Positions 26,338 to 51,528 of a stretch of DNA of 64,000 nucleotides are shown here, piece after piece. The DNA comes from Gemmatimonadaceae bacterium (GTDB taxonomy: Bacteria > Gemmatimonadota > Gemmatimonadetes > Gemmatimonadales > Gemmatimonadaceae), in contig JADZDM010000003.1 of NCBI GenBank assembly GCA_020851035.1, positions 1-64,000 on the forward strand, written 5' to 3'. A program made the translations under genes and the position numbers. Positions within the stretch are counted from its first letter, which is position 1. Each line of letters starts with the position of its first letter. The notes under the pieces were generated by a model, which had not been told where the DNA came from, ran no database searches, and saw only the letters and a list, made by a program, of their open reading frames with translations.

Positions 26338-27264
26338 ATGCGCGTCGGTCTCCTGCGCTGCCTGGCGCTCGTGGGCCTGCACTTCCTCACGGTGCCCGGC
26401 CTGGTCGGCCAGGGCAGCCGGACCCCGGATGCCGTGCGCATCACGGTGCTGCAGGGCAGCGCCACGCCCGCCTCGCACCAGCTCGTCGAGGGGTTCCGGC
26501 GGCGGTTCGAGCAGGTGGGCCGGCGGAGCATCGTCACGGTGCTGCCGGCGGATGGCGGTGGCGGCTCGACCGCCGCCTCGACGGACCTGGTGATCGCCCT
26601 CGGCGCGCGCGCGGCCTCGGTGGCCGCGCGCGAGTATCGCGGCGTGCCGGCCATCGGCGCGCTGGTGACCCGGGAATCGGCGGCGCCGTCCGGTGGTGCC
26701 TCGCCGTCGGTGGTGCTGGAGTTCACCCCCGAGGTGGAACTGGACTGGGTGCGCCGCATGCTGCCGCAGGCACGGCGCATCGGGGTGCTCTACAGCAGCG
26801 ACGCGAACGCGCGGCTGGTGGCGCGGGCGCGCGAGATCGGCCGCAGCATGGGCCTCGAGATCGTGGCGCGCCGCATCGCGAACCCGTCGGAGATCCCGGC
26901 GGCCCTCAATGGCATGGCCGGCGATGCCGACGTGCTGTGGGGACTGGCCGACGACCTGGTGCTGACGCCGGAGACGGCGCGCGCCGTGTTGCTCTCCTCC
27001 CTGCGCACGCGGCTGCCGTTCGTCGGCCTCTCGTCGCAGTGGGTGCGTGCCGGTGCCGTGTACGCCCTCGACCGTGACTACGCCGACATGGGCGCGCAGA
27101 CCGCCGACCTGGCCGTCCGCCTCCTCGACGGCGCCCCGCTGCGCGCCGGCGATGCCGTGACGCCGCGCAAGGTCGTGTACTCCCTCAACCTCCGCAGTGC
27201 CGCCCTGATGCGACTGACCATCCCGGACAACCTGCAGCGCGGCGCCAGCGAGATCTTCCGATGA
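26338..27264 (+). CDS. Periplasmic binding protein, ABC_sub_bind family
   Basis: A 308-residue exported protein of the ABC-type uncharacterised substrate-binding family (PF04392). The signal peptide ends near residue 25 (PGLVGQG). Two lobes are recognisable: VRITVLQGSATPASHQLVEG and IALGARAASVAARE in lobe 1, then RRIGVLYSSDANARLVARAR and LWGLADDLVLT in lobe 2. No transporter permease or ATPase lies nearby. It overlaps the hybrid kinase gene by four bases, so it probably delivers ligand to the kinase rather than to a transporter. Such binding protein-kinase pairs are known in this family. Confidence 0.9.
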   Translation: MRVGLLRCLALVGLHFLTVPGLVGQGSRTPDAVRITVLQGSATPASHQLVEGFRRRFEQVGRRSIVTVLPADGGGGSTAASTDLVIALGARAASVAAREYRGVPAIGALVTRESAAPSGGASPSVVLEFTPEVELDWVRRMLPQARRIGVLYSSDANARLVARAREIGRSMGLEIVARRIANPSEIPAALNGMAGDADVLWGLADDLVLTPETARAVLLSSLRTRLPFVGLSSQWVRAGAVYALDRDYADMGAQTADLAVRLLDGAPLRAGDAVTPRKVVYSLNLRSAALMRLTIPDNLQRGASEIFR

Positions 27265-30140
27265 CCACTGCACCCTCCCGTGCCCCGCGCCGTCCCGGGC
27301 TGGCGATGAAGATGTCGCTGCTCGTTTCGGGCGCCGTCTGCATCACCGTCGCGATCAGCGCCTTCGTGCTGCTCTCGCGCGAGCAGCGCCAGTCCGAGCG
27401 CGACCTGCTCTCCCGGGCCTCGGCCATGGCGCAGCTCGTCGCCGCCAACAGCGAGTTCGCGATCTACACCGGCACCACCGATGCCCTCGGCCCGATCGTC
27501 AAGCGGCTGGAGGCGATGGACGATGTCGCGTTCCTGCGGGTGGTGCGCCTGCCTGACGAGGTCGTGTTCGACCGGCGCGTGCGACCGGCCTTCGCGCGGA
27601 CCGACATCGACCTCGTCCCGCTCGCACCGGACGCCACCACGCTCACCACGCACCGCTGGCGCACGCACGACGAGCCGGTGCTCGACATCATCGTGCCGGT
27701 GCTCTCCGGTGACGAGGGCGACCTCACGGCGGACCCGCTCGGTGCCACCGGCACGGCCGCGAAGGGGCGCACGCTGGGCTATGTGCAGCTCGGCATGACG
27801 CTCACGCCCACCCTGGTGCGCCGCCAGCAGGCGCTGACGCAGGTGGGCCTGTGGACACTGGTGCTGCTGGCCGTGGGCCTGCCGCTCACGCACATGCTCA
27901 CCCGCCGCGTGACGGCGCCGGTGCGCGCCCTCGTCGACGCCGCCCGTGCGGCCGGTGAGGGCCGCTTCGACTCGATCGGCCACATCGGCGGCAGCGACGA
28001 GATCGGGACGCTCGCGCGCGCCTTCGAGATGATGGTGCGCAAGCTCCGCGCCTCGTGGAGCGACCTCGAGGACCACCAGCGGACGCTCGAGGCCAAGGTG
28101 CTGAGCCGCACCCAGGCGCTCGAGGAGTCGCGCGCCGCGGCCGAGGCGCATGCCCAGCGCGCGGAGGAGGCCAGCCGCGCCAAGTCGCAGTTCCTCGCCA
28201 ACATGAGCCATGAGATCCGCACGCCGATGAACGGCGTGATGGGCATGCTCGAGCTGCTTGGCGCCACCGAGCTCGCCCCGCGCCAGAAGCGCTTCGCCGA
28301 GACGGCGTACCGCTCGGCCGAGGAGCTGCTGGAGCTGATCAACGACATCCTCGACTTCTCGAAGATCGAGGCCGGCCACCTCGAGCTCCACCGCACCGAC
28401 TTCGACGTGCAGCAGTCGGTGGAGGACGTGTGCGAGATGCTCGCGCCGCGCGCCCACGGAAAGGGGCTGGACCTGATCGTGCGCATCGCGCCGGCGGTCC
28501 ACCGCAACGTCTTCGGCGACGTGATGCGGCTGCGCCAGGTGCTGGTGAACCTCATCGGCAACGCCATCAAGTTCACCACCAGCGGCAACGTGCAGCTCCG
28601 CGTGTCGCAGGTGGAACAGGACGACCAGCGGCAGGTGCTGCGCTTCGACGTGCAGGACACCGGCATCGGCATCACCCCCGAGGTCGCGTCGCGCCTGTTC
28701 ATGCCGTTCGTGCAGGCGGATTCCTCGACCACGCGTGAGTACGGTGGCACCGGCCTGGGCCTGGCCATCGCACGCCAGCTTGTGGAGCTGATGGGCGGCA
28801 CCATCGTCCTCGAGTCGGCACCCGGCCAGGGCTCGACCTTCTCGTTCACGGTGGCGCTGGACCTGCGCCCGCTGGACACCACGGCACCGCTCACGCCGGC
28901 CCGCGCACTGCAGGGTAGCCGCGTGCTCGTGATCGACGACAACGCCATCAACCGCGAGGTGCTGCGCGAGCAGCTCGGCGCCTGGGGCGCCACCGTCGAC
29001 GAGGCCGACAGCGGCTCGGGCGGCCTCGAGACCCTCGCCGGCGCCGCGCCGTACGACGTCATGATCCTCGATTTCACCATGCCGAACATGGACGGCGGCG
29101 AGGTGGCCCGCAGCGTCCGTGCGAACCCGGCGTGGCGCGGCATGCCGATCCTGCTCCTCAGTTCCGTCGGCGGCACCGCGCACGCGCTCGAGACGGCAGC
29201 GCCGGTGGATGCGATGCTCACCAAGCCGGTGCGCCAGCGCGAGCTGGCGGAGCGCCTCGCGTCGCTCATCAAGGGCAGCACCGAGAGCCATGTCGGTGGC
29301 GCCGAGCCGGCGCCGGACAGCGCCGAGCCGGCCGAGCCGGCGCGGCAGGGTCGCCGCATCCTGCTGGCGGAGGACAACCCGGTGAACCAGCTCGTGGCCA
29401 CCGGCATGCTGGAAGGTGCCGGCTGCATCGTCACGGTGGCGTCGAACGGGTTGGAGGCGGTGCAGCTCGCCACCACGCAGCGGTTCGACCTGATCCTGAT
29501 GGACTGCATGATGCCGGAGCTGGACGGGTATGGGGCCACGGCCACCATCCGGTCGCACGAGGACGACGGCCCGTTCCGGACGCCGATCGTGGCGCTCACC
29601 GCGTCGGCGCTGGCGGGTGAGCGGCAACGCTGCCTGGCGGCGGGGATGGACGACTACCTCACGAAGCCGATGCGGAAGGAGGCGCTCCTCGCGCTGCTGG
29701 ACCGCTGGGCCGACAGCGGCGAGGCGGCGCCGGCCGACGCGACCGCGAGCACCGGCGCGGCGATGGTACCCGAGGCGATCGCGCCGGTGGAGGACGACTT
29801 CGCGCTCGACCAGGGTGCGATCGACAGCATCCTCGCCTGTCCCGGCGGGCCACGCATCCTCGCAGCCTCGGTGGGCGCGTATGCCACCTCGGCGCCGCTG
29901 CAGGTGCGGTCGCTGCGGGACGCGGTGGCGTCGGGGGACCGTGACGCCGTGCGCCGGATCGCGCACACGCTGAAGTCGAGCAGTGCGATGCTGGGGGCCC
30001 GTGCGCTCTCGGGCATCCTCCGTGACGTGGAGGTGCATGCCCTCGAGCTCGAGCCGGCGGAGCTGGAGCGCCTGGTGGCGACCGCCGAGCATGCCTGTGA
30101 CGTGGCCCTTCGCAGCCTGGTGGCCCATGTCGCGCACTGA
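27261..30140 (+). CDS. Tripartite hybrid histidine kinase (HK-REC-REC-Hpt)
   Basis: A 959-residue BarA-like sensor. The first membrane segment is at about 14-34 and an extracytoplasmic domain (about 40-185) has CHASE8-like IYTGTTDALGPIVKRLE. The second membrane segment is at about 192-212, followed by HAMP. DHp SHEIRTPMNG has H317, and the ATPase motifs are present. REC1 has D604 (MILDFTMPNMDG), REC2 has D748 (ILMDCMMPELDG), and the C-terminal Hpt has H902 (RIAHTLKSSSAML). Phosphate can thus pass H317-D-H902 and on to the receiver of the next gene product. Start and stop overlap both neighbours, showing tight coupling. Confidence 0.95.
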   Translation: MTTAPSRAPRRPGLAMKMSLLVSGAVCITVAISAFVLLSREQRQSERDLLSRASAMAQLVAANSEFAIYTGTTDALGPIVKRLEAMDDVAFLRVVRLPDEVVFDRRVRPAFARTDIDLVPLAPDATTLTTHRWRTHDEPVLDIIVPVLSGDEGDLTADPLGATGTAAKGRTLGYVQLGMTLTPTLVRRQQALTQVGLWTLVLLAVGLPLTHMLTRRVTAPVRALVDAARAAGEGRFDSIGHIGGSDEIGTLARAFEMMVRKLRASWSDLEDHQRTLEAKVLSRTQALEESRAAAEAHAQRAEEASRAKSQFLANMSHEIRTPMNGVMGMLELLGATELAPRQKRFAETAYRSAEELLELINDILDFSKIEAGHLELHRTDFDVQQSVEDVCEMLAPRAHGKGLDLIVRIAPAVHRNVFGDVMRLRQVLVNLIGNAIKFTTSGNVQLRVSQVEQDDQRQVLRFDVQDTGIGITPEVASRLFMPFVQADSSTTREYGGTGLGLAIARQLVELMGGTIVLESAPGQGSTFSFTVALDLRPLDTTAPLTPARALQGSRVLVIDDNAINREVLREQLGAWGATVDEADSGSGGLETLAGAAPYDVMILDFTMPNMDGGEVARSVRANPAWRGMPILLLSSVGGTAHALETAAPVDAMLTKPVRQRELAERLASLIKGSTESHVGGAEPAPDSAEPAEPARQGRRILLAEDNPVNQLVATGMLEGAGCIVTVASNGLEAVQLATTQRFDLILMDCMMPELDGYGATATIRSHEDDGPFRTPIVALTASALAGERQRCLAAGMDDYLTKPMRKEALLALLDRWADSGEAAPADATASTGAAMVPEAIAPVEDDFALDQGAIDSILACPGGPRILAASVGAYATSAPLQVRSLRDAVASGDRDAVRRIAHTLKSSSAMLGARALSGILRDVEVHALELEPAELERLVATAEHACDVALRSLVAHVAH

Positions 30141-32277
30141 CCCCCGCGCTGCGGCGCATGCCCCGGTGATCCTGGTGGCCGATGACGACCTCGTCATGCG
30201 CAGCATGATGAGTGCCGTGCTCGCCGAGTCCGGCTTCACGGTGATCGAGGCCGCCGATGGCAGCGAGGCGCTGTCGCGCGCGCTGTCGGCGCGTCCCGAC
30301 CTGATCGTGCTGGATGTCGTGATGCCGGGGCTGGACGGGTTCCAGGTGTGCGAGCAGCTGCGCGCCGTCGCCGGCATGGCGGAGGTGCCGGTGCTCATGC
30401 TCACGGGCCTCGAGGACACGCACGCCATCCGCCGCGCCTTCGAGATCGGGGCCACCGACTTCGCCACCAAGCCGCTCAGCCCCGCGCTGTTCAGCCATCG
30501 CGTGCACTTCATGCTGCGCTCGGTGGACATGGTCAGCGAGCTGCGCGAGAGTGAGGCGCGGCTGGGAAATGCACAGCGCCTGGCGCGCCTGGGCAACTGG
30601 GAACTGGACCTGAAGCGCCGCGTGGTCAGCGGGTCGCCGGAGACGTTCGCGATCCTCGGCCTCGACGTGGCGCAGCGCGAGGTCGGCATCGAGGCGCTGC
30701 GTGCCCTGGTCACGCCCGGTGACCTGGAGTCGCTGGATGCGGCCGTGCACCGCGTGATCCGCGGCGACGCCAGCTTCGAGCACGAGTGCCGCGTGACCCC
30801 GCCGGAGGCGAGCTCGCGCAACATCTGCCTGATGGGCCAGCTCGTGCGTCGCGGCGCATCGCGGGAGCTCTGCATCGCCGGCACCATCCAGGACATCACG
30901 GAGCGGACGGTGGCCGAGGAGCGGATCCGCAGCCTCGCCTACTACGACGCCCTGACGGGGCTGCCGAACCGGCTGATGTTCACGGAGCGGGTGCGGACGG
31001 CGATGTCGCTGGCGCGGCGCAACAACACGCGGCTGGCGCTGCTGCTGGTGGACCTCGACAACTTCAAGAGCATCAACGACACGCTCGGCCACGGCGCCGG
31101 TGACCTGGTGCTGCAGGAGGTGGGGGCGCGCCTGCGCACGATCGTCCGTGACACCGATGCCGTCTCGCACGAGATCGGGGGGGACGGCTTCCTCCCGGTG
31201 TCGCGCCTTGGCGGCGACGAGTTCCTGGTGGCGGTGGCGGACCTCGAGGCCGGTGACGAGGCGGCCGGCGTGGCGCGACGCATCCTCAGCGCGCTGCGGC
31301 TGCCACTCACGGTGGGCTCGAACGAGATCTTCGTGGGCGCCAGCATCGGCATCAGCGTCTTCCCCGATGATGGTGCGGACTTCGAGGCGGTGTTCCGCAA
31401 CGCCGACGTCGCGCTCTACCACGCCAAGGACGCCGGCCGGAACACGTCGGAGTTCTTCAGCGCCGCCATGAACGAGACGGCGATGTACCGCATGCTCATC
31501 GAGACGAGCCTGCGGCGCAGCCTCGAGCGGGACGAGCTCTCGGTGCACTACCAGCCGCAGGTGGACGTGCAGACCGGCCGGCTGCTCGCCGCGGAGGCGC
31601 TGCTGCGCTGGACGCACCCCGACATCGGCCACGTGAGCCCGGCGCAGTTCATCCCGCTGGCGGAGCGGATCGGCATGATCGCGCCGCTCACGGAGTACGT
31701 GCTGCACAGCGCGTCGAAGTCGCTGCGCCACTGGCACGACCTCGGCGGGACCGGGATGCGCGTGGCCGTCAACCTGTCCACCCAGCTCTTCCGGCAGCGC
31801 GACGTGCTGCAGCGTCTCGCCGACATCCCGGAGCAATACGGCGTGGACCCGTCGTGCGTGGAGTTCGAGATCACCGAGACCACGCTGCTGGACAGCCCGG
31901 CCGATGCGGAGCGCATCCTGACGATGTTCCGCGAGCGTGGCTTCCGGGTGGCGCTCGACGACTTCGGGGCGGGCTACTCGTCACTCAGCCACCTGCGGCG
32001 CTTCGCGCTCGACACGCTCAAGATCGACCGGTCGTTCATCCGCGAGCTGCTGAGTGGACCGCGCGAGCTGGAGATCGTGGGGGCGCTGATCGCGCTCGCG
32101 CACCGGCTCGGCATCGAGCCGGTGGCGGAGGGCATCGAGGAACCGAGCCAGCGCGAGGCCCTGCTGGCGAAGGGGTGCCGCGTGATGCAGGGGTACCTGA
32201 TCGGTCGCCCGATGCCGGCGTACGCCATGTCGGCGCTCGTGACACAACAGGCGGAATCGCCGGTCGCCGGGCGCTGA
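30127..32277 (+). CDS. Response regulator with PAS, GGDEF and EAL domains
   Basis: A 716-residue c-di-GMP enzyme. The receiver domain (1-135) has D63 (IVLDVVMPGLDG) as phosphate acceptor and a PAS domain lies at about 150-265. The GGDEF domain (about 275-450) keeps the active site G362-G-D-E-F366, and the EAL domain (about 460-710) keeps E490-A-L and DDFGAGYSS. Both cyclase and phosphodiesterase activity are therefore possible. An insert of about 13 residues (SHEIGGDGFLPVS) stands just before the GGDEF motif, a variation seen in related proteins. It starts inside the kinase gene (14-bp overlap) and is the likely output of that kinase. Confidence 0.95.
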   Translation: MSRTDPRAAAHAPVILVADDDLVMRSMMSAVLAESGFTVIEAADGSEALSRALSARPDLIVLDVVMPGLDGFQVCEQLRAVAGMAEVPVLMLTGLEDTHAIRRAFEIGATDFATKPLSPALFSHRVHFMLRSVDMVSELRESEARLGNAQRLARLGNWELDLKRRVVSGSPETFAILGLDVAQREVGIEALRALVTPGDLESLDAAVHRVIRGDASFEHECRVTPPEASSRNICLMGQLVRRGASRELCIAGTIQDITERTVAEERIRSLAYYDALTGLPNRLMFTERVRTAMSLARRNNTRLALLLVDLDNFKSINDTLGHGAGDLVLQEVGARLRTIVRDTDAVSHEIGGDGFLPVSRLGGDEFLVAVADLEAGDEAAGVARRILSALRLPLTVGSNEIFVGASIGISVFPDDGADFEAVFRNADVALYHAKDAGRNTSEFFSAAMNETAMYRMLIETSLRRSLERDELSVHYQPQVDVQTGRLLAAEALLRWTHPDIGHVSPAQFIPLAERIGMIAPLTEYVLHSASKSLRHWHDLGGTGMRVAVNLSTQLFRQRDVLQRLADIPEQYGVDPSCVEFEITETTLLDSPADAERILTMFRERGFRVALDDFGAGYSSLSHLRRFALDTLKIDRSFIRELLSGPRELEIVGALIALAHRLGIEPVAEGIEEPSQREALLAKGCRVMQGYLIGRPMPAYAMSALVTQQAESPVAGR

Positions 32278-32342: not shown

Positions 32343-32390
32343 ATGCCACAGCGATCTTTCCACTGCCGCGTCGGCGGCACGCGCACGTGA
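32343..32390 (+). CDS. Possible 15-residue leader peptide
   Basis: ATG at 32343 opens a 15-codon frame (MPQRSFHCRVGGTRT). Its TGA stop at 32388-32390 overlaps the GTG start of the channel gene as GTGA. With the -10 element at the leaderless distance, this short frame would be translated first and the channel start reached by reinitiation. There is no conservation evidence available here, so it may be chance. Confidence 0.3.
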   Translation: MPQRSFHCRVGGTRT

Positions 32391-33409
32391 GCGCGGAGCC
32401 TGATGTGCGCCGGCCCGAGGTCGAGGCGCGCGAGGACCTCGGGTTCGGGCGCCTCGTCGCCGAGACGGTGCGCGGCCGGTTTCTCTCGCGCGACGGCACC
32501 CCGCTGAGCCACAAGTACGGCCTCGGGCCGCAGCGCCTGGAGCGCTTCTACCTCGGTGCGCTCGGCACCACCTGGCTGACCTTCGTCGGCTGGTCACTGG
32601 GCGCCGTGATGCTGCTGAATGGCTGCTTCACACTGGCGTTCCTCGCGCTCGGGCCTGCCGCGATCGGCGGGCGCGACGTGGTGCGGATCGATGACCCGTT
32701 CCTGGCCACGTTCAGCTTCAGCCTGGCGAAGTTCACCACCTCCGATGCGTCGCCGATGTTCGCCGTGGGCGCCACGGCGCACTGGCTGACGATCCTCGAG
32801 TCACTCCTCGGCCCGCTCACGCTGGTCGTCATCGCCGGGTTGCTGATCGCGCGGCTGATCCGGCCGCGCATGCGCCTGCAGTACAGCGAGTCGGCGGTGG
32901 TGGCGCCGTACGAGGGCGGACGCGGGCTGATGTTCCGGTTCGTGAACACGCAGCCCAGCGAGCTGAGTGACGTGCAGGTGCGCGTGAACCTCATCCTCTA
33001 CGAGACGCGCGACGGACGGCGCCAGCGCGCGTTCCACCAGCTCGAGCTGGAGCGGGACTCGGTGGAGTTCTTCACGCTCCACTGGACGGTGGTGCACCCG
33101 ATCACCGACCGCAGCCCGCTCCGGGGCTACACGCCTGCGATGCTGCGCGAGGCCGAGGCCGAGCTGCTGGTCTCGGTGAACGCGCACGAGGGCACCTTCT
33201 CCACGCGCGTCACCTCGCGCTGCTCGTACGGCCACGACGACATCCGGTGGGATGCCCGGTTCGCGAGCGTCTTCGTCAGCGCCCCAGACGGCATCGTCGC
33301 CATCGACGTGGAGCGCCTCGACCGGCTCGACATCCTCCCCGACGGCGCCACCGCCGCCCCCGCTGCCGGCGAGCTCACTCCGGGACCGACGCCGGCGGGT
33401 CGTTCGTGA
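32387..33409 (+). CDS. Inward-rectifier (Kir/KirBac) type channel with altered filter
   Basis: A 340-residue protein with the full Kir layout. A slide helix precedes TM1 (about 60-88), then come a pore region (105-125), TM2 (about 135-157) and a cytoplasmic immunoglobulin-like domain. That domain carries typical motifs (RLIRPRMRLQYSESAVV, FHQLELERDSVEFFTLHW, VVHPITDRSPLRGYTP, YGHDDIRWDARF). In the pore, an ungapped comparison with KirBac places T118-S-D-A-S122 where the K+ filter TVGYG should be. It is therefore unlikely to be a normal K+-selective channel. The start is GTG at 32387, giving the usual N-terminus; TGA of a short leader frame overlaps it. Confidence 0.85.
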   Translation: MSAEPDVRRPEVEAREDLGFGRLVAETVRGRFLSRDGTPLSHKYGLGPQRLERFYLGALGTTWLTFVGWSLGAVMLLNGCFTLAFLALGPAAIGGRDVVRIDDPFLATFSFSLAKFTTSDASPMFAVGATAHWLTILESLLGPLTLVVIAGLLIARLIRPRMRLQYSESAVVAPYEGGRGLMFRFVNTQPSELSDVQVRVNLILYETRDGRRQRAFHQLELERDSVEFFTLHWTVVHPITDRSPLRGYTPAMLREAEAELLVSVNAHEGTFSTRVTSRCSYGHDDIRWDARFASVFVSAPDGIVAIDVERLDRLDILPDGATAAPAAGELTPGPTPAGRS

Positions 33410-33464: not shown

Positions 33465-35069
33465 TCAGCTCGTGAGCCCGACGCCGACGCGCACCGACTC
33501 GTGGTCGAGCTCCTCCTCCAGCTCGCGCAGCGTCTCGTCCGAGATCGCCCCCTCGTTCCGCAGCCGCACCAGCATGCGTCGCTCGGCGGCGAGGATCCCG
33601 CGGCGGAGCCGGCGCTGCGTGGTCACGTCGCCGGCATGGCGCTCGTGGAGCTGGATGCGGTCGCGCAGCTCGTGTCGCAGCTGCGCCACTTCCTCGGGGG
33701 CCGCCCATGGCTCTCGCGACAGGTCCTCCAGCGCCTCGGCGCCGCGGCGCAACGCCTCGCGGCGCGCATGACGCTCCTCCTCGCGGTGGTGCGTCTCCGG
33801 CACGAACGCGAACGCCCGGATGATGGGGGTCAGCGTCAGCCCCTGGAGAACCAGCGTGATCATGATCACGCACATCGTGATGAGGATGATCTCGGCGCGG
33901 AACGGAAACGGGGTGCCGCCGGCCAGCGTGAGCGGCAGCGCCAGTGCGGCCGCCAGCGACACGATCCCGCGCATCCCCGTCCAGGCCACCAGCGCCACGG
34001 CGCGGCGATCCGGCAGCGGGTCGTCGCGCCGGAGCCGGCGGCTCAGCCGTCGCGGCAGGATCGTGGCCACGGGCACCCACACCAGCCGCACCAGGATCGC
34101 GACCACGCTGATCACCGCGCCGGTGCCGAGCGTGGACACCAGCGTGCTGGCCGTCACCGTCTCCAGCAACGCGTGGAACTGCAGGCCGAGGATCAGGAAG
34201 ATGAGCGCGTTGATCACGAACACGAGCAGGTCCCAGACTGCCCGGGACTGCAGCCGCGACATCGGCGAGACCACGGTGGAGAAGTGCTGGCGGACATGGA
34301 CACCCCCCGCCACGCAGGCCAGCACCGCCGACACGTGCAGCGATTCCGCCACCACCCAGCAGAAGTAGGGCGCGGCGATCGTCAGCAGCGTCTCGGCCAG
34401 CGCGTCGTGCGTGACGCGGATGATCCGGATCGCCAGCCAGCCCACGAGGATGCCGACCAGCACACCGACGCCGGCGTCGATGAAGAACCGCACCACCGCC
34501 TCACCGAGGCTGAACACCCCCGTCACCGCCGCGGCGACCGCCGTGCGGTAGAGCACGAGCGCCGCCGCATCGTTCACCAGGCTCTCGCCCTCGAGGATCA
34601 CCACCACGCGTCGCGGCACCGGGAGGCGTGACACGATCGCCGCGGCGGCCACGGCATCCGGGGGTGACACGATCGCACCAATCGCCACCGCCACCGCCCA
34701 TGGCACGCCGGGCAGCAGCGCGTGCGCCGTCACCGCCACCACCGCCGATGTCGCGAACACCAGGCCGACGGCGAGCAGCCCGATCGGTCGCAGGTTCTGC
34801 CGGAACTCGCGGACCGAGGTGAAGAACGCGGCCGCCCACAGGATCGGCGGCAGGAAGAAGAAGAAGACCAGGTCCGGCTCGAGCTCCGGCACGCGCAGCC
34901 CCGGGATGAACCCGAGCACCAGGCCCGCGAGCACCTGCAGGATCGGCGACGGCACCGGCAGCTTCCGCGCCAGCGCCGTGAGCGCCACGACGAGCGTCGC
35001 GAGCGCCACACCGGCGAAGACCGGCTGGAACGGTGCGGCCTCAGACAGCAGCAGCAGGGACAGCGACAT
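33465..35069 (-). CDS. Na+/H+ antiporter, CPA1 family
   Basis: A 534-residue membrane protein with about 12 hydrophobic segments and a charged cytoplasmic tail of about 120 residues. CPA1 motifs include FFFFLPPILWAAAFFTS, AIVSPPDAVAAAAI with the ion-site Asp, and GESLVNDAAALVLYRTAV. TGMRGIVSLAAALALP carries the conserved Arg. Family members exchange Na+ (or K+) for H+ to control pH and salt. It overlaps the stop of the upstream LLM gene by one base (TGATG) and so is probably co-transcribed with it. Confidence 0.94.
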   Translation of the reverse strand: MSLSLLLLSEAAPFQPVFAGVALATLVVALTALARKLPVPSPILQVLAGLVLGFIPGLRVPELEPDLVFFFFLPPILWAAAFFTSVREFRQNLRPIGLLAVGLVFATSAVVAVTAHALLPGVPWAVAVAIGAIVSPPDAVAAAAIVSRLPVPRRVVVILEGESLVNDAAALVLYRTAVAAAVTGVFSLGEAVVRFFIDAGVGVLVGILVGWLAIRIIRVTHDALAETLLTIAAPYFCWVVAESLHVSAVLACVAGGVHVRQHFSTVVSPMSRLQSRAVWDLLVFVINALIFLILGLQFHALLETVTASTLVSTLGTGAVISVVAILVRLVWVPVATILPRRLSRRLRRDDPLPDRRAVALVAWTGMRGIVSLAAALALPLTLAGGTPFPFRAEIILITMCVIMITLVLQGLTLTPIIRAFAFVPETHHREEERHARREALRRGAEALEDLSREPWAAPEEVAQLRHELRDRIQLHERHAGDVTTQRRLRRGILAAERRMLVRLRNEGAISDETLRELEEELDHESVRVGVGLTS

Positions 35070-38234: not shown

Positions 38235-40925
38235 ATGCAGCAGCATGACATCGCGATGGACGCTGCCCGGTGGCGCGAGATCGAGCCGCTCTTCACGCAG
38301 GCGCTGGCGCTCACCGCAGCGGAACAGCCCGGCTACCTCGATGCCGTCACCGGCGCCGACACGACACTCCGCGCCGAACTGGTCCGGCTCCTGGCCGCGT
38401 CGCGCGCGCCGGACCTCTTCATCGACGGCTGTGCCGCCGACCGCTTCGACGCGCTGATCGCCGGCGAGGAGCCGGCGCAGGCGGCTGGGCAGGTGGTGGG
38501 ACCGTATCGCCTCGTCTCGGAGATCGGGCGCGGGGGGATGGGCGTCGTGTACCTCGCCGAGCGCGCCGACGAGCAGTTCACGCAGCGGGTGGCGCTGAAG
38601 CTGGTGAAGCGCGGGATGGACACGGACTTCGTGCTCCGGCGCTTCCGCGCCGAACGCCAGATCCTCGCCTCGCTCTCGCACCCCAACGTGGCGCGCCTGC
38701 TGGATGGCGGCACCACCGCCGATGGCCGCCCGTACTTCGTGATGGAGCACATCGAGGGGCGCCGCATCGATGTCTATGCGCGCGAGGCGAACCTGGGGCT
38801 CGGTGCGCGGCTCGACCTCTTCCTGCGCGTCTGCGATGCCGTCGGCTACGCGCACCAGCAGCTGGTGGTGCACCGCGACATCAAGCCCGCGAACATAGTC
38901 GTGACCGCCGACGGCGCGCCCCGGCTGCTGGACTTCGGCATCGCGAGCCTCCTCGACGACGATGGCACCGGCGGCACCGCCACCGGCGTGCGGGCACTCA
39001 CACCGGAGTACGCCAGCCCGGAGCAGGCCGACGGCCAGCGCGTGGGCACCGCCAGTGACGTGTACTCGCTGGGTGTGGTGCTCTTCCAGTTGGTGACCTG
39101 TGCGTTGCCGCAGGAGTTCACCAGCCGTCGCCCCGCCGAGATCGCGACGCAGCTGCGCTCCACCCCGCCGCGACGGCCGAGTGAGGTGGCACGCGCGGAA
39201 GCCGCGGGCTGGCGGAAGCGGCTGCGCGGTGACCTCGACACGATCATCCGCACCGCGCTCGAACCGGTGATCGCGCGACGCTACGCCAGCGTGGAGGCGC
39301 TCGCCACCGACCTGCGCCGGCATCGTGCGGGAATCCCGGTGCTGGCACGTCCGGCCTCCGTCGGCTACCGGGTGACCCGGTTCGTGCAGCGCAACCGCCT
39401 GCTGGTGGCCGGCAGCGCCGCACTGCTCGCGACGATGCTGGCCGGCTCGGTCGCCTTCGCCTGGCAGGCGCGAGTCGCGCGGCACCAGGCGGTGAGCGCC
39501 GAGCGCCGCTTCAGCGACCTGCGTGCGCTCGCGCACAACGTGCTGTTCGACTACCACGACGCCATACAATCGCTCCCGGGCGCCACGCCGGTGCGGGCCC
39601 GGCTGGTCCAGGATGGGCTCGAGTATCTCGATCGCCTCTCGGCCGACTCGATCGAGGATCGCTCCCTGCAACTGGAACTGGCCGAGGCCTACCAGCGCAT
39701 GGGCGACGTGCAGGGCGGCTCCATGCGCGCGAACCTCGGCAACTCGGCCGGTGCGATCGCCAGCTACCGGAAGTCACTCGCACTCCTCGAGCGCCTGGCC
39801 GCCGCACCGGCGACAGCGGCGGATTCCGTGGCGGCGCCCGCCGATGCGCGCCGCAGTGTCGTGCTCAGCGAGCTGGGGGTGCTCTACTGGGAGACGGGTG
39901 ACCTCGCGACCGCCAGGGCGATGATGAGCCGTGCGCGCGACCTGCTGGTCCCGCAGCTCCGGCACCGGCCCGCCGACGACGCGTTGCACTACTCCATGAA
40001 CCACCGGCGCGACTACCTCGCCCAGATCCTCTTCGCGATGGGGGAGACGGTGGCGGCGCGCGCGGAGTACGACGCTGCCCTGGCCTCGCTCGACTCGATC
40101 TCGCCGGCAGAGCGGGGCAGCGTGTCGGTGCGGCGGAGCTACTCGGTGACCCTCCAGCACCTCGGCGAGCTCCTCGCGGACCAGGGGAACCTCACCGCGG
40201 CGCTCGCCACCAGCCAGCGGGCGCTCGCCCTGCGGCGTGCACTGGCGGCAGAGGAGCCGCTGAACGCCGAGTTGCAGCGCGCGCTCTCGGTGGCGTACTA
40301 CTACGAAGGGGAGAACCTGGGCCGGCTCGGGCGCTTCCGCGAGGCGCGGGCAAGCTACGAGTCCGATCTCCGCATCGTGTCCGCGCTCCTGCGCGCCGAC
40401 CCGGACAACGCCCTCTATCGCGGTGACGCGGAGTATGCCTACACACGCATCGGCGACATGCTGGGCAATGCCGGCCGCCTCCAGGACGCCATCCGCAACT
40501 ACGATGCGTCCTACGCCATGCATGCCGTGGACGTCCGCGCCGACTCCACCAACATCTGGAAGCGGGCCGCCATGATCGAGGCGCAGGCCAAGGGCGCGGC
40601 GGGGTACGCCCGTTTGCGCGACCGGCGCGCCGCGCTGCCCCGCCTGCAGGCCGTGGAGGCCGCCATGCTGCACACGGTCGTAGACACCGCCGATGCCACC
40701 ATCCGGAGCTTCTTCGCCGAGACGTGGACTGGACTGGGTGCCTCCTGGCTGGCGCTCGGCGGGCCGGCCAGCGACTGCACGGCGGCCGGAAGGCAGCTGG
40801 CCCGCGCCGACTCGGTGCTCGGCGACATGCTCCGTCGGCGTCAGGCCAGCCATCCCGACTCGCTCAGAATCGATGAGATCGCCAGGCTGCAGCGCCGCGC
40901 ACTGCAGGAGTGCCCCCCGGGCTGA
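38235..40925 (+). CDS. Membrane Ser/Thr protein kinase with TPR-like C-terminus
   Basis: An 896-residue PknB-type kinase. A helical N-terminal region (1-85) precedes the kinase domain (about 90-365). It has the glycine loop IGRGGMGVVY, K122 (VALKLV), the catalytic loop HRDIKPAN (213-220), LDFG (232-235) and TPEYASPEQ, all intact. One membrane segment lies at about 388-410. The rest (about 415-896) is helical with tetratricopeptide-like repeats such as GAIASYRKSLALLERLA and AALATSQRALALRRALA. The start at 38235 has GGAAGG upstream. Beside an ECF sigma factor, it is a likely regulator or target-partner of that factor. Confidence 0.93.
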   Translation: MQQHDIAMDAARWREIEPLFTQALALTAAEQPGYLDAVTGADTTLRAELVRLLAASRAPDLFIDGCAADRFDALIAGEEPAQAAGQVVGPYRLVSEIGRGGMGVVYLAERADEQFTQRVALKLVKRGMDTDFVLRRFRAERQILASLSHPNVARLLDGGTTADGRPYFVMEHIEGRRIDVYAREANLGLGARLDLFLRVCDAVGYAHQQLVVHRDIKPANIVVTADGAPRLLDFGIASLLDDDGTGGTATGVRALTPEYASPEQADGQRVGTASDVYSLGVVLFQLVTCALPQEFTSRRPAEIATQLRSTPPRRPSEVARAEAAGWRKRLRGDLDTIIRTALEPVIARRYASVEALATDLRRHRAGIPVLARPASVGYRVTRFVQRNRLLVAGSAALLATMLAGSVAFAWQARVARHQAVSAERRFSDLRALAHNVLFDYHDAIQSLPGATPVRARLVQDGLEYLDRLSADSIEDRSLQLELAEAYQRMGDVQGGSMRANLGNSAGAIASYRKSLALLERLAAAPATAADSVAAPADARRSVVLSELGVLYWETGDLATARAMMSRARDLLVPQLRHRPADDALHYSMNHRRDYLAQILFAMGETVAARAEYDAALASLDSISPAERGSVSVRRSYSVTLQHLGELLADQGNLTAALATSQRALALRRALAAEEPLNAELQRALSVAYYYEGENLGRLGRFREARASYESDLRIVSALLRADPDNALYRGDAEYAYTRIGDMLGNAGRLQDAIRNYDASYAMHAVDVRADSTNIWKRAAMIEAQAKGAAGYARLRDRRAALPRLQAVEAAMLHTVVDTADATIRSFFAETWTGLGASWLALGGPASDCTAAGRQLARADSVLGDMLRRRQASHPDSLRIDEIARLQRRALQECPPG

Positions 40926-41056
40926 CCCCGCCGTACTCACGAGCACGGCACTTGCTGCAGGTGGGTGGCAGAGAGCCTGTTCGGAGCGGGTTGCGCGACG
41001 CCGCGCAGCGGAGGAGGGACCAGCAGCAGCGCGTGCCGCAGGCACCGGGAGCCGGG

Positions 41057-43036
41057 GTGACTCGAGTCAGTCCCAGCCCGCACGACGACCTCGTGCCCAA
41101 CAGTCCCGTCCGCTGGCACGATATCGAGCCCATCTACACGCTCGCGCTCATGCTGCCCGCCGACGAGCGCGCCGCCTACCTCGAGGGCGCCACGGCCGGC
41201 GATGTCGATCTCCGCGCGGAAATCGACCGTTTGCTGGAGCGGCACCCCGTGCAGGCGACCGGGGAGGCGCTGCACCGGCACCACACGTCTGCAGCATCGA
41301 TGCCGGTGGCGCCGCCACGACCGCAGCCGCGTTCCCGCATCGGGGACCAGCTCGGCCCCTTCTGGCTCGACCACGAACTCGCCCGCGATTCCCGCACGGT
41401 CGCCTATCTCGCGACCCGCGTCGACCCGTTCCACGATGATCCAGATCCGGCCAGCCGCCGCGTGGTCGTGCGGGTGGCTGACACCCCGGTGCCCGGTGAC
41501 GCGGCGCGCCGCCTGCTCCGCGACCGCCGGGACGCCCCCGCCGCGCTGGTGCATCCCGCGATCACGCGCCTGCTCGACGCCGGCGTCACCCCCGATGGCT
41601 GCCCCTTCGTCGTGACCGAGCACGCCGTCGGTGCACCCATCACCGTCGCCGCCACGCAGCAGTCGCTGGAACTCAACAGCCGCCTGTCGCTGTTCCTCGA
41701 GTGCTGTGATGCGGTCACCCACGCGCACCGGCACTTCCTCGCGCATGGTGCGCTGACGTCGCAGACACTGCTCGTGGACCCACAGCGGCAGCTGCGTGTC
41801 GTCGACATCGGCACGGCTCCACTGCTCGATGCCGCGGCGCCCGCGCCCACTGTCCGCGACGACATCAGGGCACTCGGCATCGTGCTCTTCGAGCTCCTCA
41901 CCTGTGAGGCATACCCCGGCGGAACCCCGCGCATGCGCCGGTCCGCGCGCAACGAGGCGCGCCTCTGGGAGGACCGCCTGGAGGGGGATCTCGATGCCAT
42001 CGTGCACACCGCCGTCGCCCCTGGCGATGGTGGCGGCTACCCCACCGTCGAAGCCCTCGCCGACGACCTGCGTCGGCACGCTGCGGGGTTTCCCGTGCAG
42101 GTGCGACCACTCGGCCTGCCACGACGGATGGGACGCGCCGCTGCCCGGAACGCACCGATGGTCTTCGCCGCCACGATCGGTGCCGCCCTCGCCATTGCGG
42201 CGATCGTCGTCGCGGCGCGGCGCGGCAGGGCCGCCGAGGCCATTCCTGCCGCCGATCGTCCCCGGGAGGCTGCACCGGCGGCGCCGCACGCGGTGCGCCC
42301 ACTGGCCGCGCTGCCCGACACGGTCGCACCGCCGGTGCCCGAGTCGGGCGCCGTGACGCCGGCCACCGCGACGCCGGCCACCGCGACGCCGGCCACCGCG
42401 ACGCCCGCTGCCGTGACGGGGGCTGCCATGACGCCGGCTGCCGCAGCACCGGTGGCCAGTGCGCCGGACTCCGCACCGTCAGCCGCGGCGGCGTCCCGGC
42501 CCAGGGCCATCGCGGCGCCCGTGTCGCCGCGTGCCGTTTCGCGTGCGGCGCCATCGAACCGCCCGACGGCGACGACACCCGTCGGCAACGTGCCGATCGG
42601 TGACACTGGTGCGCGCCGCCGATTCATCGCGGAAATCGCGGCGCTCGACTCACTCACGCCGGCGCAGCAGGCCACGCCGGCCGTGCGACGTCGCTACGCC
42701 GTGGCCTACCAGGAGCTCGCCAGGCTGCAGGCCGCTGCTGGCGACCGCCGCGATGCGCTGTCGAGCAGTCGCCGCGCACTGGGCATGCGTGCCTCGCTGG
42801 CAACCGCTGGTCGCCCGGACCGCATCCTCCTGCGCGAGCTCGCCTCGGCCATGCGCGATGAAGGCACGCAGCTCGCGAGCCTCGGGCAGGTGGAGGAGGC
42901 ACGCCGCAGCTATGCCCCCGCGCTCGCGATCGCCGACTCGCTGCAGCGCGCCGATCCGCGCGACGTGCTCGCCGGCCGCATGGTGGCCGACCTCACCGCG
43001 CGCCTCGCACGCCTCCCGGCCCGCCGCCCGCGCTGA
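41057..43036 (+). CDS. Pseudokinase paralogue of the preceding Ser/Thr kinase
   Basis: About 659 residues if GTG 41057 is used; GTG at 41093 is an alternative and 40910 would overlap the kinase gene. The N-terminus (RWHDIEPIYTLALMLPADER) matches that of the upstream kinase, and the kinase fold is traceable (about 100-365), but the active site is lost. There is no glycine loop, R139 stands where the Lys should be (VVVRVA), HRD is replaced by HGA (230-232), and DFG reads DIG (250-252). A membrane segment lies near 382-400, then an Ala/Thr/Pro-rich linker with a 15-bp DNA repeat, then a helical C-terminus. It may bind or regulate the active kinase; this is inference. Confidence 0.8.
   Translation: MTRVSPSPHDDLVPNSPVRWHDIEPIYTLALMLPADERAAYLEGATAGDVDLRAEIDRLLERHPVQATGEALHRHHTSAASMPVAPPRPQPRSRIGDQLGPFWLDHELARDSRTVAYLATRVDPFHDDPDPASRRVVVRVADTPVPGDAARRLLRDRRDAPAALVHPAITRLLDAGVTPDGCPFVVTEHAVGAPITVAATQQSLELNSRLSLFLECCDAVTHAHRHFLAHGALTSQTLLVDPQRQLRVVDIGTAPLLDAAAPAPTVRDDIRALGIVLFELLTCEAYPGGTPRMRRSARNEARLWEDRLEGDLDAIVHTAVAPGDGGGYPTVEALADDLRRHAAGFPVQVRPLGLPRRMGRAAARNAPMVFAATIGAALAIAAIVVAARRGRAAEAIPAADRPREAAPAAPHAVRPLAALPDTVAPPVPESGAVTPATATPATATPATATPAAVTGAAMTPAAAAPVASAPDSAPSAAAASRPRAIAAPVSPRAVSRAAPSNRPTATTPVGNVPIGDTGARRRFIAEIAALDSLTPAQQATPAVRRRYAVAYQELARLQAAAGDRRDALSSSRRALGMRASLATAGRPDRILLRELASAMRDEGTQLASLGQVEEARRSYAPALAIADSLQRADPRDVLAGRMVADLTARLARLPARRPR
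42355..42444 (+). repeat. 15-bp tandem repeat inside the pseudokinase gene
   Basis: Six units of GACGCCGGCCACCGC, the first three perfect, encode TPATA-type pentapeptides in the linker between the membrane segment and the C-terminal domain. Such an array can change copy number without shifting the frame. Confidence 0.85.
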
Positions 43037-45136: not shown

Positions 45137-47563
45137 TCAGCGTGCGATGGCGTGGCGCGCGAGCACGTACTGCACGGCGAGGTCCGTGGTGCTCCACAGC
45201 TGGATGTCACCACCGCTCCCGTATCGCTGCGCGCCCAGCCGCCCGCGTTCCACGCCGTAGCTCCACAGCTCCGCGTGGAAGCCCGACTGCTCCACGGCCA
45301 GGCGCACCTGTTCGAGCATCGCACCGAGTGCCGACCGTCGCGCCGCGTCGCGCGCGCCGTCGGGTGTCCGCAGCGCGAGGTGCTGTGCGACCCCGAGCAG
45401 GAAGAGGTTCACCTCGCGGCCCCAGACCACGCGCGGTCCGTGGTACGGGTCCTTCACGAAGGCAGACCACACCGCCGGCGGCGCATACGCGTCGTTGGCC
45501 ACGACCGGGCCGATGCGTGCCACGAACAGGCCGGTCGGGTAGGGCAGGGCGAAGAGGCGCGCATCGCGGTCGAGCTGCGCGAGTTCCGCCTCGCTCGGCG
45601 GCGTGGTGCGGCCGTCGCCATCGCCGAGGAAGATGCGCGTCGCGGCATCGGTGTTCATCACCGGGATCGGCGCGCCGGTGGCGTCGAGTGCGACGGCCAG
45701 GAACTCGAGGCCGTCCGTCGGCAGCGCGCCGGCCTGCGCCTGCCACCATCCGCGTTCCTCCGCGGGCATCGCGGCCAGCCGTGCCGTCACCGCAGCCTGC
45801 GCCTGGGCCGCATCACGGCGCACGAGAAAGTGTCGTGACGCCCCCTTCCATGTGGCGATCGCCTGTTGGAGCCGGGCGGGCTCGCGGGCGTAGCGCGCCA
45901 GCGGCGTGTCCCCCGCGGTCGCCGCACCGGTCGCGATGCCGAGGTCGCGCATCGCGTCGAGGATGCGGCCCACCGACTCCAGTGCGTGTGGCACCCAGAT
46001 GGCGTTGATGTCCATCGCGTAGCGGCCACCGGCGTACCCGGCGCCGCTGTCGCGCCAGCTCGCCGTCTCCCACCCCGCGGGCGCGCGTGGCGCGAAGGCG
46101 ATGAGGTTCGCCGTGACCGGGTCCTCGGCATAGGCCGCCGTGAGCCGGGTCACGAGGTCCAGCTCGCGCACGAGCTGCTGTGCATGCGTGGCACCACCGG
46201 CGCCGCGCGTGTTCAGGAATGCGCGCTTCGCCGACGCGGGCACGGCCGGGTCGGTGATCCACCGCGCCACGACGATCGGCAACTGGTACTCGTCGTCGAT
46301 CATGTGGTAGTTCTCGCGCGTGGTGCGGAGGGCGCGCAGGACGGAGTCGGCGCGGGCCAGCAGCACCGCGGGCGGTTCAGCGCCGGCGGCGTTCCCCCCG
46401 CCCAGCGCCGCCTCGACGAGGGTCGCGTAGGCCCCCGCCGATTCGCGCACGGCCTGGTCACCGAGCGCCTCCTCGTGCGAGACCTCGCCACCGGGGCCAA
46501 GCTTGCCGAGGGCGGTCGATATGACGGCCTCGAGCGTCTCGTGGCGCCAGATCGGCCGCATCATGAGCGCGGTCATCAGCATGTCGCGGCCGAAGTACGT
46601 CGCGTACGTCGGCAGGCCGGCCATCAGCTTCTCCCGCGAGACGAGCAGCTCCACGCCGCGCACCTGCCGCTCCATCCGTCGCGCGCGGATGGCCGCGGAG
46701 TCGGTCGCCGGCACGCGCGCGCCGCGCGCGGCGGTCTCGGCGAGGAAGGCGAGGAAGTCGGGGGTGAAGATCTGCTCCCGCGAGAGCGGCGTGAGCGTCC
46801 GGGCGGTTGTGGTGATGCGGCTCGTGAAGGTCACTGCATCACCGCGCCGCGCCTGCAGCGTGACCGAGTCGCCGCCAAGGGCCGGCAGCACGTCGGCGGT
46901 GCGGCCCGTCAGCTCGACGGTGAGGGTGTCGCGGCCGTCGAGCGTGGCCTGCACCACGCGGGCGCGCCAGGTGGTGGGCGTGGTGGTGAGGGTGGGGTGC
47001 GGATGGAGGCGCGCGCGGAGCTGGGCCACCGACCGTGCGTTGAGTCGCGCGAGGTGCTGCGTGCGGACCCCGGCCGGCAGGCGCTCCAGTGCGGCGAACA
47101 GCCGGTCGAGGTCGGGGAGCCGGTACGGCGCCGCGGCGAACGCCGTGCGGGCGCGCTGGTCATACTGGAAGTCACGTTCCACGCGCATGGAGCCGAGCAG
47201 GAACCAGCCGATGCTGACGGTGCTGCCGGCGGCGGTGAGCGTGTGCGTGAAGTGTCGCGTGCGACCACTGCGTCCCGCCCGGGACGGAGCGGCCGCCCAG
47301 GTGATGGCGGGGACGGTGCCATCCGGTGCCCGGACCGTGTAGCCGATGCTCGCATTGTCGGCATCGGCGAGCAGGTGCACGACGCGTGCGCTGCGCTGAT
47401 CGATGTAGAGCTGCAGTGTGTTGCGTGCGGCGTCGCGGAAGAGGCGCGTCTGGTACCCGCGATAGGCGCTGGTGTCATCGAGCGCCGGGTCCGGGAAGGA
47501 GAGGACGGGCAGGACCGGCGCCTGGGCGACGGCGAGTTGTGCGAGCAGGGCGAGGGCGAGCAC
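45137..47563 (-). CDS. Secreted protein with six-hairpin glycosidase-like barrel
   Basis: An 808-residue exported protein (signal peptide about 1-14, starting at GTG 47563, cleavage near VAQA). The N-terminal 300 residues look beta-rich. The central and C-terminal part (about 330-808) is alpha-helical. Its FGRDMLMTALMMRPIW, LGKLGPGGEVSHEEALGDQ and YAMDINAIWVPHALESV recall (alpha/alpha)6-barrel glycoside hydrolases such as GH15, GH37 and GH63. Acidic residues in those segments could be catalytic, but I cannot assign them. It is best called a putative glycosidase of unknown family; it is transcribed away from the SusC gene. Confidence 0.6.
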   Translation of the reverse strand: MLALALLAQLAVAQAPVLPVLSFPDPALDDTSAYRGYQTRLFRDAARNTLQLYIDQRSARVVHLLADADNASIGYTVRAPDGTVPAITWAAAPSRAGRSGRTRHFTHTLTAAGSTVSIGWFLLGSMRVERDFQYDQRARTAFAAAPYRLPDLDRLFAALERLPAGVRTQHLARLNARSVAQLRARLHPHPTLTTTPTTWRARVVQATLDGRDTLTVELTGRTADVLPALGGDSVTLQARRGDAVTFTSRITTTARTLTPLSREQIFTPDFLAFLAETAARGARVPATDSAAIRARRMERQVRGVELLVSREKLMAGLPTYATYFGRDMLMTALMMRPIWRHETLEAVISTALGKLGPGGEVSHEEALGDQAVRESAGAYATLVEAALGGGNAAGAEPPAVLLARADSVLRALRTTRENYHMIDDEYQLPIVVARWITDPAVPASAKRAFLNTRGAGGATHAQQLVRELDLVTRLTAAYAEDPVTANLIAFAPRAPAGWETASWRDSGAGYAGGRYAMDINAIWVPHALESVGRILDAMRDLGIATGAATAGDTPLARYAREPARLQQAIATWKGASRHFLVRRDAAQAQAAVTARLAAMPAEERGWWQAQAGALPTDGLEFLAVALDATGAPIPVMNTDAATRIFLGDGDGRTTPPSEAELAQLDRDARLFALPYPTGLFVARIGPVVANDAYAPPAVWSAFVKDPYHGPRVVWGREVNLFLLGVAQHLALRTPDGARDAARRSALGAMLEQVRLAVEQSGFHAELWSYGVERGRLGAQRYGSGGDIQLWSTTDLAVQYVLARHAIAR

Positions 47564-48336
47564 GGTGATGTGTCAGGAAGGGGAATCGGGGCCGGTTTCC
47601 GCGGACCTGGCGGTCCGGGGCGTGGAATCGGGGCGCGCTGGCCGGTGGGTCTCCGCGCACGCGCGGTGGCGGTGTCGTCCGGCTTCCTGAATGCTACGAC
47701 TCGGTGCCGGAACCGGTGACCGGTGCGGGGAATGTGCACGCTTTGCCCCGGACGACTGCCGACTCCTGCCGAGATTTGCCGACAATCTCCCGGACGTGCA
47801 AGCCGTTCAGGGGACAGGCTTTACGCGCCAACGGTCCGGTTTGGTACGATCTCTTGACACGGTTCGTGCCGGCGGCGAGCATAGCCCCAACAATTCCCGG
47901 GCACACTGGCGTCTGGCCGGCAGGATCCGGCCGGGTGCCGCTTGCCATACGGTTTCTCCTTCCCCGAGGTGAGGACGCGCGCAGCGCGCGCGGCGCGGCT
48001 ACGAAGCACGGCGATCTGTAACGCCCCGCGCGGCGTTCCGCGCGATGGCCGGCGGATGCGCAGTGGGAGAGGGAGTCTCCGCGTGCGGCGTGGCCCGCGA
48101 TGACCCCGGCGAGTCGGAGTGCAAGCGGGACTGGCGATGCCGACAGCGGGGCATCGCGCAGGGGACGGAAGGCCCCTGGTGGGTGCGCAGTTGATGCGCG
48201 GTATGGAGTCTGGAATAGGGTGACCGCTGGTCCGGTCAGCAGTTGCAGGTGCTGTCTCGGCGGGTGCGTGGCGGTGAGTGCATCGCAGGCGCGTCCGTAT
48301 GACAAAACCCTCCGCATGATTCAGGAGAGCAGACGA
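47564..48336. other. Long non-coding stretch upstream of the SusC gene
   Basis: No gene is seen on either strand in about 770 bases between divergent genes. Possible signals are TACGAT (about 47846) and TTGACA (about 47854) as promoter parts, three TGCCGA repeats near 47757-47790, and GC-rich inverted segments near 47975-48000. The SusC ribosome binding site AGGAGAG is at 48323-48329. The interval probably holds the regulatory region and a long leader of the SusC/D operon. Confidence 0.5.
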
Positions 48337-51300: not shown

Positions 51301-51465
51301 AGCACGCGCGTCTACGTCTCGGGCGACAACCTGCTCCTGTTCACCCCGTACTCGGGCTATGACCCGGAAGTGTTCATTGACTCCGGCCTGGCATCGCGCG
51401 GCATCGACTACCTGTCGTATCCCCGCGCCCGGACCTTTACCACCGGTCTGCGCATTGCGTTCTGA
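48337..51465 (+). CDS. SusC/RagA-family TonB-linked outer membrane protein
   Basis: A 1042-residue TonB-dependent transporter. The signal peptide ends near residue 24 (LANPLQAQG). A carboxypeptidase-D-regulatory-like domain (about 25-105) starts GAISGRVIDSTSQLPMQS. The plug (about 115-230) has the SusC marks VVVTGYGSQRKEAVTGSV, IRIRGGTSI, PLYVVDGVPL and KDAAATAIYGSRGANGVVL. The large barrel follows and ends FTTGLRIAF. SusC proteins import glycans or peptides together with the SusD lipoprotein encoded next. The start at 48337 has AGGAGAG upstream and correct signal-peptide placement. Confidence 0.96.
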   Translation: MKLIRGLMAAAVGGLILANPLQAQGARGAISGRVIDSTSQLPMQSVTVTIEGTQRGAITRVDGGFTLADLPAGTARLRVTRIGYTPQVKDVAVIPGQTATVRFVMQAVAANLGAVVVTGYGSQRKEAVTGSVATINAEEANVGVVANPTQLLAARAPGVNVTLNSGEPGAGAQIRIRGGTSISASNDPLYVVDGVPLQNNESEARGYGIGGSAALGRNPLNAINPSDISSVTVLKDAAATAIYGSRGANGVVLIETKKGRSGAATMEYETYAAFGQAANALEPLSAAQYRALLTKEIANTNNPAATRTALSTQLAGLGTANTNWESELQRTALTQNHNVSFAGGNQTTTFRASLNFADQQGVVISNGFKRLQARLNGSHEALNGRLRIGLNLSSSRIENDYLPFENTGGFEGGVFQNSVIYLPTNPVFVTNTTTQAQSYYETGLGRQEKRNPVALANTVLDEGQTMRTLANVTTSFSIFPSLIAQLNVGTDRSNGQRNIYLPRAGSVGSEFGGLAQQSQRALSNQTLQSLLTWSPTVGHEIDFDIVGGYEYTDFDNTDFSAQSRNFTTDAFTFNNLGAGANPQIPQSYQEQSRLVSFFSRANFGYKNKYFLTGVLRRDGSSRFGDANKWAVFPAISGSWLVSDESFAKGLPFSQLKLRAGYGLQGNQAVQPYASLPSLAPDGGARYVFGSTVFTGIVPNVNANPNLKWEQSTQANFAIDYGLSDGKYSGSLEFYSKKTTDLLLTVPISQSGSAFVSTQLQNVGSVQNRGLEFSLDGRMIERSGRGMNLTVGLVASIERNKVLDLGAADFIETGGVSGQGQTGVNSQRIIPGQPIGTFYGAEFAGYNTAGNQLFNKYTVTRDAAGNETSRVLAGTTTSVGADDKVIIGNANPNFSLGLRSNLTWHGFDASWLWRAEQGRDVFNNTGLVYATKQAITAQRNLLSSALDTPEPISEPALYSSRWIEDGSFVRLQNVTIGYTFNLPFGGGSKSTRVYVSGDNLLLFTPYSGYDPEVFIDSGLASRGIDYLSYPRARTFTTGLRIAF

Positions 51466-51528
51466 GTCGGTCCCCGGTGTTTCTGAGTTGATCGTGAATT
51501 CCTACCTGTCTCTTTGAGGCGAATGCGA

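Follow-up and report, generated by a model that had tools for sequence, protein, structure and literature searches.

The window, a 64,000-nucleotide stretch of DNA from a Gemmatimonadaceae bacterium, contains a gene for a Kir-fold channel of the NirBac2 type and, convergent with it, a gene for a CPA1 Na+/H+ antiporter (Table 1). An in-frame GTG (V-T-A...) is found at the same start position in many orthologues of the channel, and the GC3 of its ORF (0.93) is similar to that of the adjacent genes.

Table 1. Features of the channel-antiporter locus (positions in the window).
Feature	Residues or description	Position	Strand	Evidence
NirBac2-type Kir-fold channel	340 aa, GTG start	32387..33409	+	profile, homology, structure, codon evidence
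Slide helix	residues 47-60	32525..32566	+	AF2/DSSP
M1 transmembrane helix	residues 63-87	32573..32647	+	AF2/DSSP
Pore helix	residues 104-116	32696..32734	+	AF2/DSSP, alignment
Filter T118-S119-D120-A121-S122, versus T-x-G-Y-G		32738..32752	+	alignments, codons
M2 pore-lining helix	residues 129-158; clade-typical G142-P143, I154	32771..32860	+	AF2/DSSP
Cytoplasmic Kir domain, IRK_C	residues 164-313	32876..33325	+	Pfam
CPA1 Na+/H+ antiporter	convergent with the channel; stop codons 55 bp apart	33465..35069	-	TIGR00831, LEGESLVNDAA motif

The channel protein is homologous to KirBac over its whole length and has the slide helix, two transmembrane helices and Kir domain of NirBac proteins. phmmer matched residues 29-311 to KirBac3.1 (E 7e-40), and Pfam identified IRK_C (1.5e-18). 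An AlphaFold2 monomer, modelled from an alignment of 38 relatives, reached a mean pLDDT of 89, with a beta-rich Kir domain (DSSP); with this model, Foldseek ranked KirBac structures highest, with TM-scores by target of up to 0.89. These results confirmed the original prediction that the fold, the slide helix, both membrane segments and the Kir domain are well kept. In fold, slide helix, M1, M2 and cytoplasmic domain the protein resembles KirBac3.1 and KirBac1.1, but it lacks their T-I-G-Y-G filter and pore-helix Gln, and these two channels are K+-selective.

The filter stretch F-T-T-S-D-A-S-P (codons TTC ACC ACC TCC GAT GCG TCG CCG) aligned without gaps with M-A-T-I-G-Y-G-K of KirBac, so that the proposed replacement of the K+ filter by T118-S-D-A-S122 was established from both codons and alignment. 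The pore had been said to align to KirBac without gaps; this holds for the filter but not for the loop upstream of the pore helix, which carries a 5-residue insertion relative to KirBac3.1. Both filter glycines and the tyrosine are missing, and the protein thus has no TxGY(F)G filter as found in KirBac/Kir K+ channels. It also has A114 in place of the pore-helix Glu/Gln of Kir K+ channels. With two transmembrane helices and a Kir domain, it is also distinct from bacterial Nav channels, which have six transmembrane segments and a TLESW-type filter.

A scan of 179 genomes of the family identified 42 full orthologues, the window gene included, with 51-70% identity, plus one additional channel fragment at a contig end in genome G019. 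A second Kir group in the family, about 32-42% identical to the window protein, is clearly separate. The first group is without GYG, whereas the second has TIGYG or TIGFG. Further members of the first group were collected from GTDB representative genomes and a sample of the phylum, and all belong to the same order. In a tree built with the filter columns excluded, the 47 distinct non-GYG sequences formed one clade within the Gemmatimonadales (SH-aLRT 100). The homologue search for filter conservation that had been proposed therefore gave a clear answer: GYG is absent from 47/47 members, and the S-D of the window protein is shared by L003 (TTSDTT), from genome G090 of the same genus.

The window channel and L003 are sisters (support 100). 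Their S-D codons (TCC GAT) are identical while nearby codons differ synonymously, and in pairwise comparison dN was 0.245 against a dS of 0.851. Because of these synonymous changes around the shared codons, the low dN/dS and the gene-like GC3, a pseudogene or sequencing error was excluded. Of the two outcomes that would have spoken against the original prediction, namely homologues retaining TxGYG and decay or error in this copy, neither was found among true orthologues; in the family, TIGYG is kept by separate paralogues. A recent loss from a canonical parent within the window genome was likewise rejected on the basis of the tree. Based on the clade-wide loss, the shared codons and a dN/dS well below 1, the sequences indicate that the non-GYG state is old and ancestral to the clade, that purifying selection has maintained it, and that it was modified further in the window genus. 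The D120 form is known from only two genomes, both of this genus.

Outside this clade, two Kir homologues from records labelled 'bacterium' and Patescibacteria (L149 and L153) have the filter TTLGSS and form a clade of their own (support 100), which indicates that GYG was lost more than once. Another homologue (L143, record Pseudomonadota) has STVGYE, with Glu for the second glycine and the tyrosine retained.

A column-wise comparison set the 47 clade members against 62 canonical relatives. Residues specific to the clade were concentrated at the filter for K+ and the positions that support it (114, 121, 119, 122 and 154). Among the strongest differences were the filter tyrosine, which became T/A (position 121 is aromatic in 0/47), and residue 114, in the pore helix behind the filter, which is E/Q/H/D in canonical relatives but G/S/A throughout the clade. 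Next in rank were the turret/M1 region, a P143 gained directly behind the invariant G142, and residue 154 in the bundle-crossing region of M2 (F in canonical relatives, I/V/L in the clade, I in the window protein). T118 (present in 94% of the clade), the R156-x-x-R159-P160 motif, the cytoplasmic domain and the remaining Kir scaffold were kept. At position 120, 91% of the clade have G; D occurs in the window genus, and two others have S. TTTGTG and TTTGTD are the typical filters, and 24 different six-residue filters occur among the 47 sequences. The residue changes described would be expected of a protein that abandoned the K+ cage, along with its support, and retained the gating parts.

Kir homologues without TxGYG were named NirBac by Zubcevic et al. 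in 2015. NirBac1.1 and NirBac1.2 from Anaeromyxobacter are tetrameric, POPG-activated, non-selective monovalent-cation channels with about equal permeation of Na+ and K+ or a weak preference, and their P-loops were described as without homology to other filters (PMC4607889). NirBac2.1 from Gemmatimonas aurantiaca T-27 (YP_002762692), with the filter TTGTD, was not characterised; its expression 'proved problematic' (PMC4607889). Among the sequences analysed here, L032 carries FTTTGTDG, shares about 56% identity with the window protein and likewise adjoins the antiporter. We take L032 to be NirBac2.1, almost certainly, on a match of filter rather than of accession. Given this identity, the grouping of L032 and the window protein in one clade (support 100) leaves very little doubt that the window gene belongs to the NirBac2 lineage. 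NirBac2.1, as represented by L032, shares with the window protein a Kir fold without TxGYG and an antiporter alongside, but its TTGTD retains the first filter glycine where the window protein has TSDAS. Judged by these residues, the window gene represents a NirBac2 that has diverged further, having lost the last canonical glycines and gained an acidic residue. NirBac1.1 and NirBac1.2, likened here by description only, share with it the Kir scaffold and a non-canonical P-loop; the genome scan did not return their loci in Anaeromyxobacter.

The uniqueness implied by the original prediction is therefore incorrect: the kind has been known since 2015, NirBac2.1 included, and dozens of relatives exist. 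Apparently new are the breadth and the consensus of the clade, the accompanying change in the pore helix and the strict pairing with an antiporter.

The statement that the filter 'should not coordinate K+' also proved too strong, because NirBac1.1 and NirBac1.2 pass K+ without TxGYG (PMC4607889) and TbIRK, a Kir-like channel of Trypanosoma brucei with GGYVG, is K+-selective, with a pK/pNa above 7 (PMC5429665). TbIRK resembles the window protein as a Kir-like channel without the signature sequence but is eukaryotic and remote, and has another filter. By analogy with TbIRK, the window channel could still prefer K+ through an unusual filter, with the antiporter acting as a K+/H+ exchanger; the prevalence of T118, the G120 of most members and below-cut-off scores of the antiporter with K+/H+ antiporter models are in keeping with this. 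We consider it improbable, given that the window protein has neither filter glycine nor the tyrosine, that Y/F121 and the pore-helix E/Q/H/D are lost in 47/47, and that the only characterised relatives of the kind, NirBac1.1 and NirBac1.2, are non-selective. Of the functions listed in the original prediction, a non-selective or Na+-permeable cation channel is best supported, on account of the NirBac1 data, the acidic filter residue and the tie to a CPA1 antiporter; an anion channel or a sensor received no support. By analogy with NirBac1, the window channel probably conducts cations non-selectively.

D120 would be expected to face the pore; the AlphaFold2 model is of a monomer. A ring of D120 might form a Nav-like high-field-strength site, making the window channel Na+-selective or divalent-passing, unlike the TTTGTG members. 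T-S-D-A is similar to the T-L-D/E-S found in NsvBa and NaChBac; in NsvBa (filter TLDSWGSG), the pore is non-selective and permeable to Ca2+ with Asp, and Na+-selective with Glu (PMC4225499). The S-D codons are, moreover, identical in both channel-bearing genomes of the genus. However, the second pore helix of Nav channels has no counterpart in Kir pores; the likeness is short and could be due to chance, and no more than a monomer was modelled. A Nav-like site of this kind is unlikely. NsvBa itself is a 6-TM voltage-gated channel of other pore architecture, without homology to the Kir domain.

Less likely still, the protein would be a pseudochannel that does not conduct and serves, for example, as a sensor or as a regulatory subunit acting on the antiporter via the Kir domain. 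The stable linkage to one transporter and the hypervariable filter would suit such a role, but the pore helix, T117-T118, M2 and the bundle crossing are conserved, purifying selection acts on the gene, and NirBac1 proteins conduct despite even more aberrant filters.

The antiporter scored 371 bits with TIGR00831 (curated cut-off 279.6), which places it in CPA1. LEGESLVNDA is retained, and N166/D167 are invariant. It is tail to tail with the channel at 30 of the 35 named loci, or 30/31 of those with enough downstream sequence. Of the remaining five loci, four are contig ends; at L131 (genome G055) both genes are kept, with the antiporter about 20 kb away. In nine pairs the genes overlap by 4 bp, and 28/31 pairs (window included) lie within 146 bp. 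Orthologues of the antiporter, which score at least 519 bits (the next CPA1 at most 339 bits), were found in 43 of the 179 family genomes, exactly the 43 with the channel. A naive calculation, which ignores phylogeny and linkage, gives a probability near 1e-42 for this overlap. In a neighbouring family, all three channel-bearing genomes have the antiporter. The orthologue was absent from the 13 channel-lacking genomes tested in the order or class outside the family, and from the roughly 5 kb around each of 20 canonical KirBac loci in the family, as far as the contigs reached. The NirBac paper does not mention the antiporter (PMC4607889), nor was any mention of a KirBac-antiporter gene pair found in the literature searched.

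The pairing suggests a biological role for the channel. Because physical linkage alone makes joint loss or transfer likely, co-occurrence overstates the functional evidence. The linkage could be chance synteny kept in one order without functional coupling: all cases are in the Gemmatimonadales, linked genes are gained or lost jointly, and the convergent orientation leaves the two genes no shared promoter. This seems rather unlikely, since presence and absence of both genes changed jointly within seven genera (g1, g2, g9, g18, g31, g32 and g34), the two genes persist in G055 despite their separation, and no other tested neighbour was retained beyond the genus. As conserved neighbours, the histidine kinase and the GGDEF-EAL gene were rejected (elsewhere scattered matches at 37-39% identity, treated as paralogues), as were the LLM oxidoreductase and the aminotransferase (retained only in the same-genus genome). 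On balance, we favour a functional coupling of channel and antiporter.

For a shared terminator, an RNA hairpin in the stretch between the two genes was considered and rejected, being no better than in shuffled sequence (z 0.01). Regulation of the pair as an excludon or noncontiguous operon is a lead only (PMC7154746).

Taken together, the best explanation, to which we assign a probability of roughly 0.55, is that the window gene encodes a non-selective cation channel of the NirBac2 lineage, which operates in a Na+(K+)/H+ cycle together with an antiporter dedicated to it. It is favoured by the flux through NirBac1.1 and NirBac1.2 and by the precedent of NsvBa, which shares a T-x-D filter motif with the window channel; Na+ entry via such Nav channels has been proposed to feed cation/proton antiporters in alkaliphilic Bacillus (PMC4225499). 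The window protein would be a tetrameric Kir-fold channel for monovalent cations. Its K+-specific backbone cage is dismantled: the clade has replaced the tyrosine, residue 114 and, in many members, the second glycine, and this genus also has D120 for the first. Four D120 carboxylates may then form a wide, acidic, hydrated site admitting Na+ and K+, as in NsvBa and NirBac1. Na+ (or K+) would pass down its gradient through the channel and become the cytoplasmic substrate of the antiporter, which would exchange it for H+ and so contribute to cytoplasmic pH and salt homeostasis. That Na+ inflow serves pH homeostasis specifically is a tentative suggestion. The window genome has no second Kir gene and no TrkH; it has Kup and KdpA, which indicate K+ uptake independent of the channel, and three further places of the Na_H_Exchanger family. 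Against this explanation, CPA1 members differ in the ion transported, and conduction is known for no NirBac2 protein. More speculatively, and with low probability, a Nav-like side-chain cation filter built on an Asp ring may have evolved on the Kir scaffold, with the channel obligately paired with a CPA1 antiporter of its own. The two genes would then make up an ion-cycling module of the Gemmatimonadales whose filter variants (GTG, GTD, SDA, STA) would be tuned to the antiporter's ion.

NirBac previously comprised three studied genes without a physiological role. In the clade described here, a single conserved scaffold carries dozens of naturally occurring filters, a series in which the dismantling of a K+ filter can be studied, and the strictly co-inherited antiporter makes the biological role of NirBac2 directly testable.

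Elsewhere in the window genome, a 192-aa protein (L181:1129-1707, + strand; G000:C33) has a marginal Ion_trans_2 match (23.5 bits, cut-off 22.5) and the pore-loop-like stretch LNFSFFGYSDILP, and is a second pore-loop-like protein without TxGYG in this genome. In the window, the ORFs at 45137-47563 (-, 808 aa) and 40910-43036 (+, 708 aa) show the codon bias of real genes and gave no Pfam match at 1e-5. Positions 48100-53109 encode a TonB-dependent receptor with a carboxypeptidase-like domain followed by a SusD-family gene, after which ORF pairs of similar size continue to 62944. At 27261-32277, the called frames of the hybrid histidine kinase and the response-regulator GGDEF-EAL gene overlap by about 158 bp; the true start of the latter is probably later than called.
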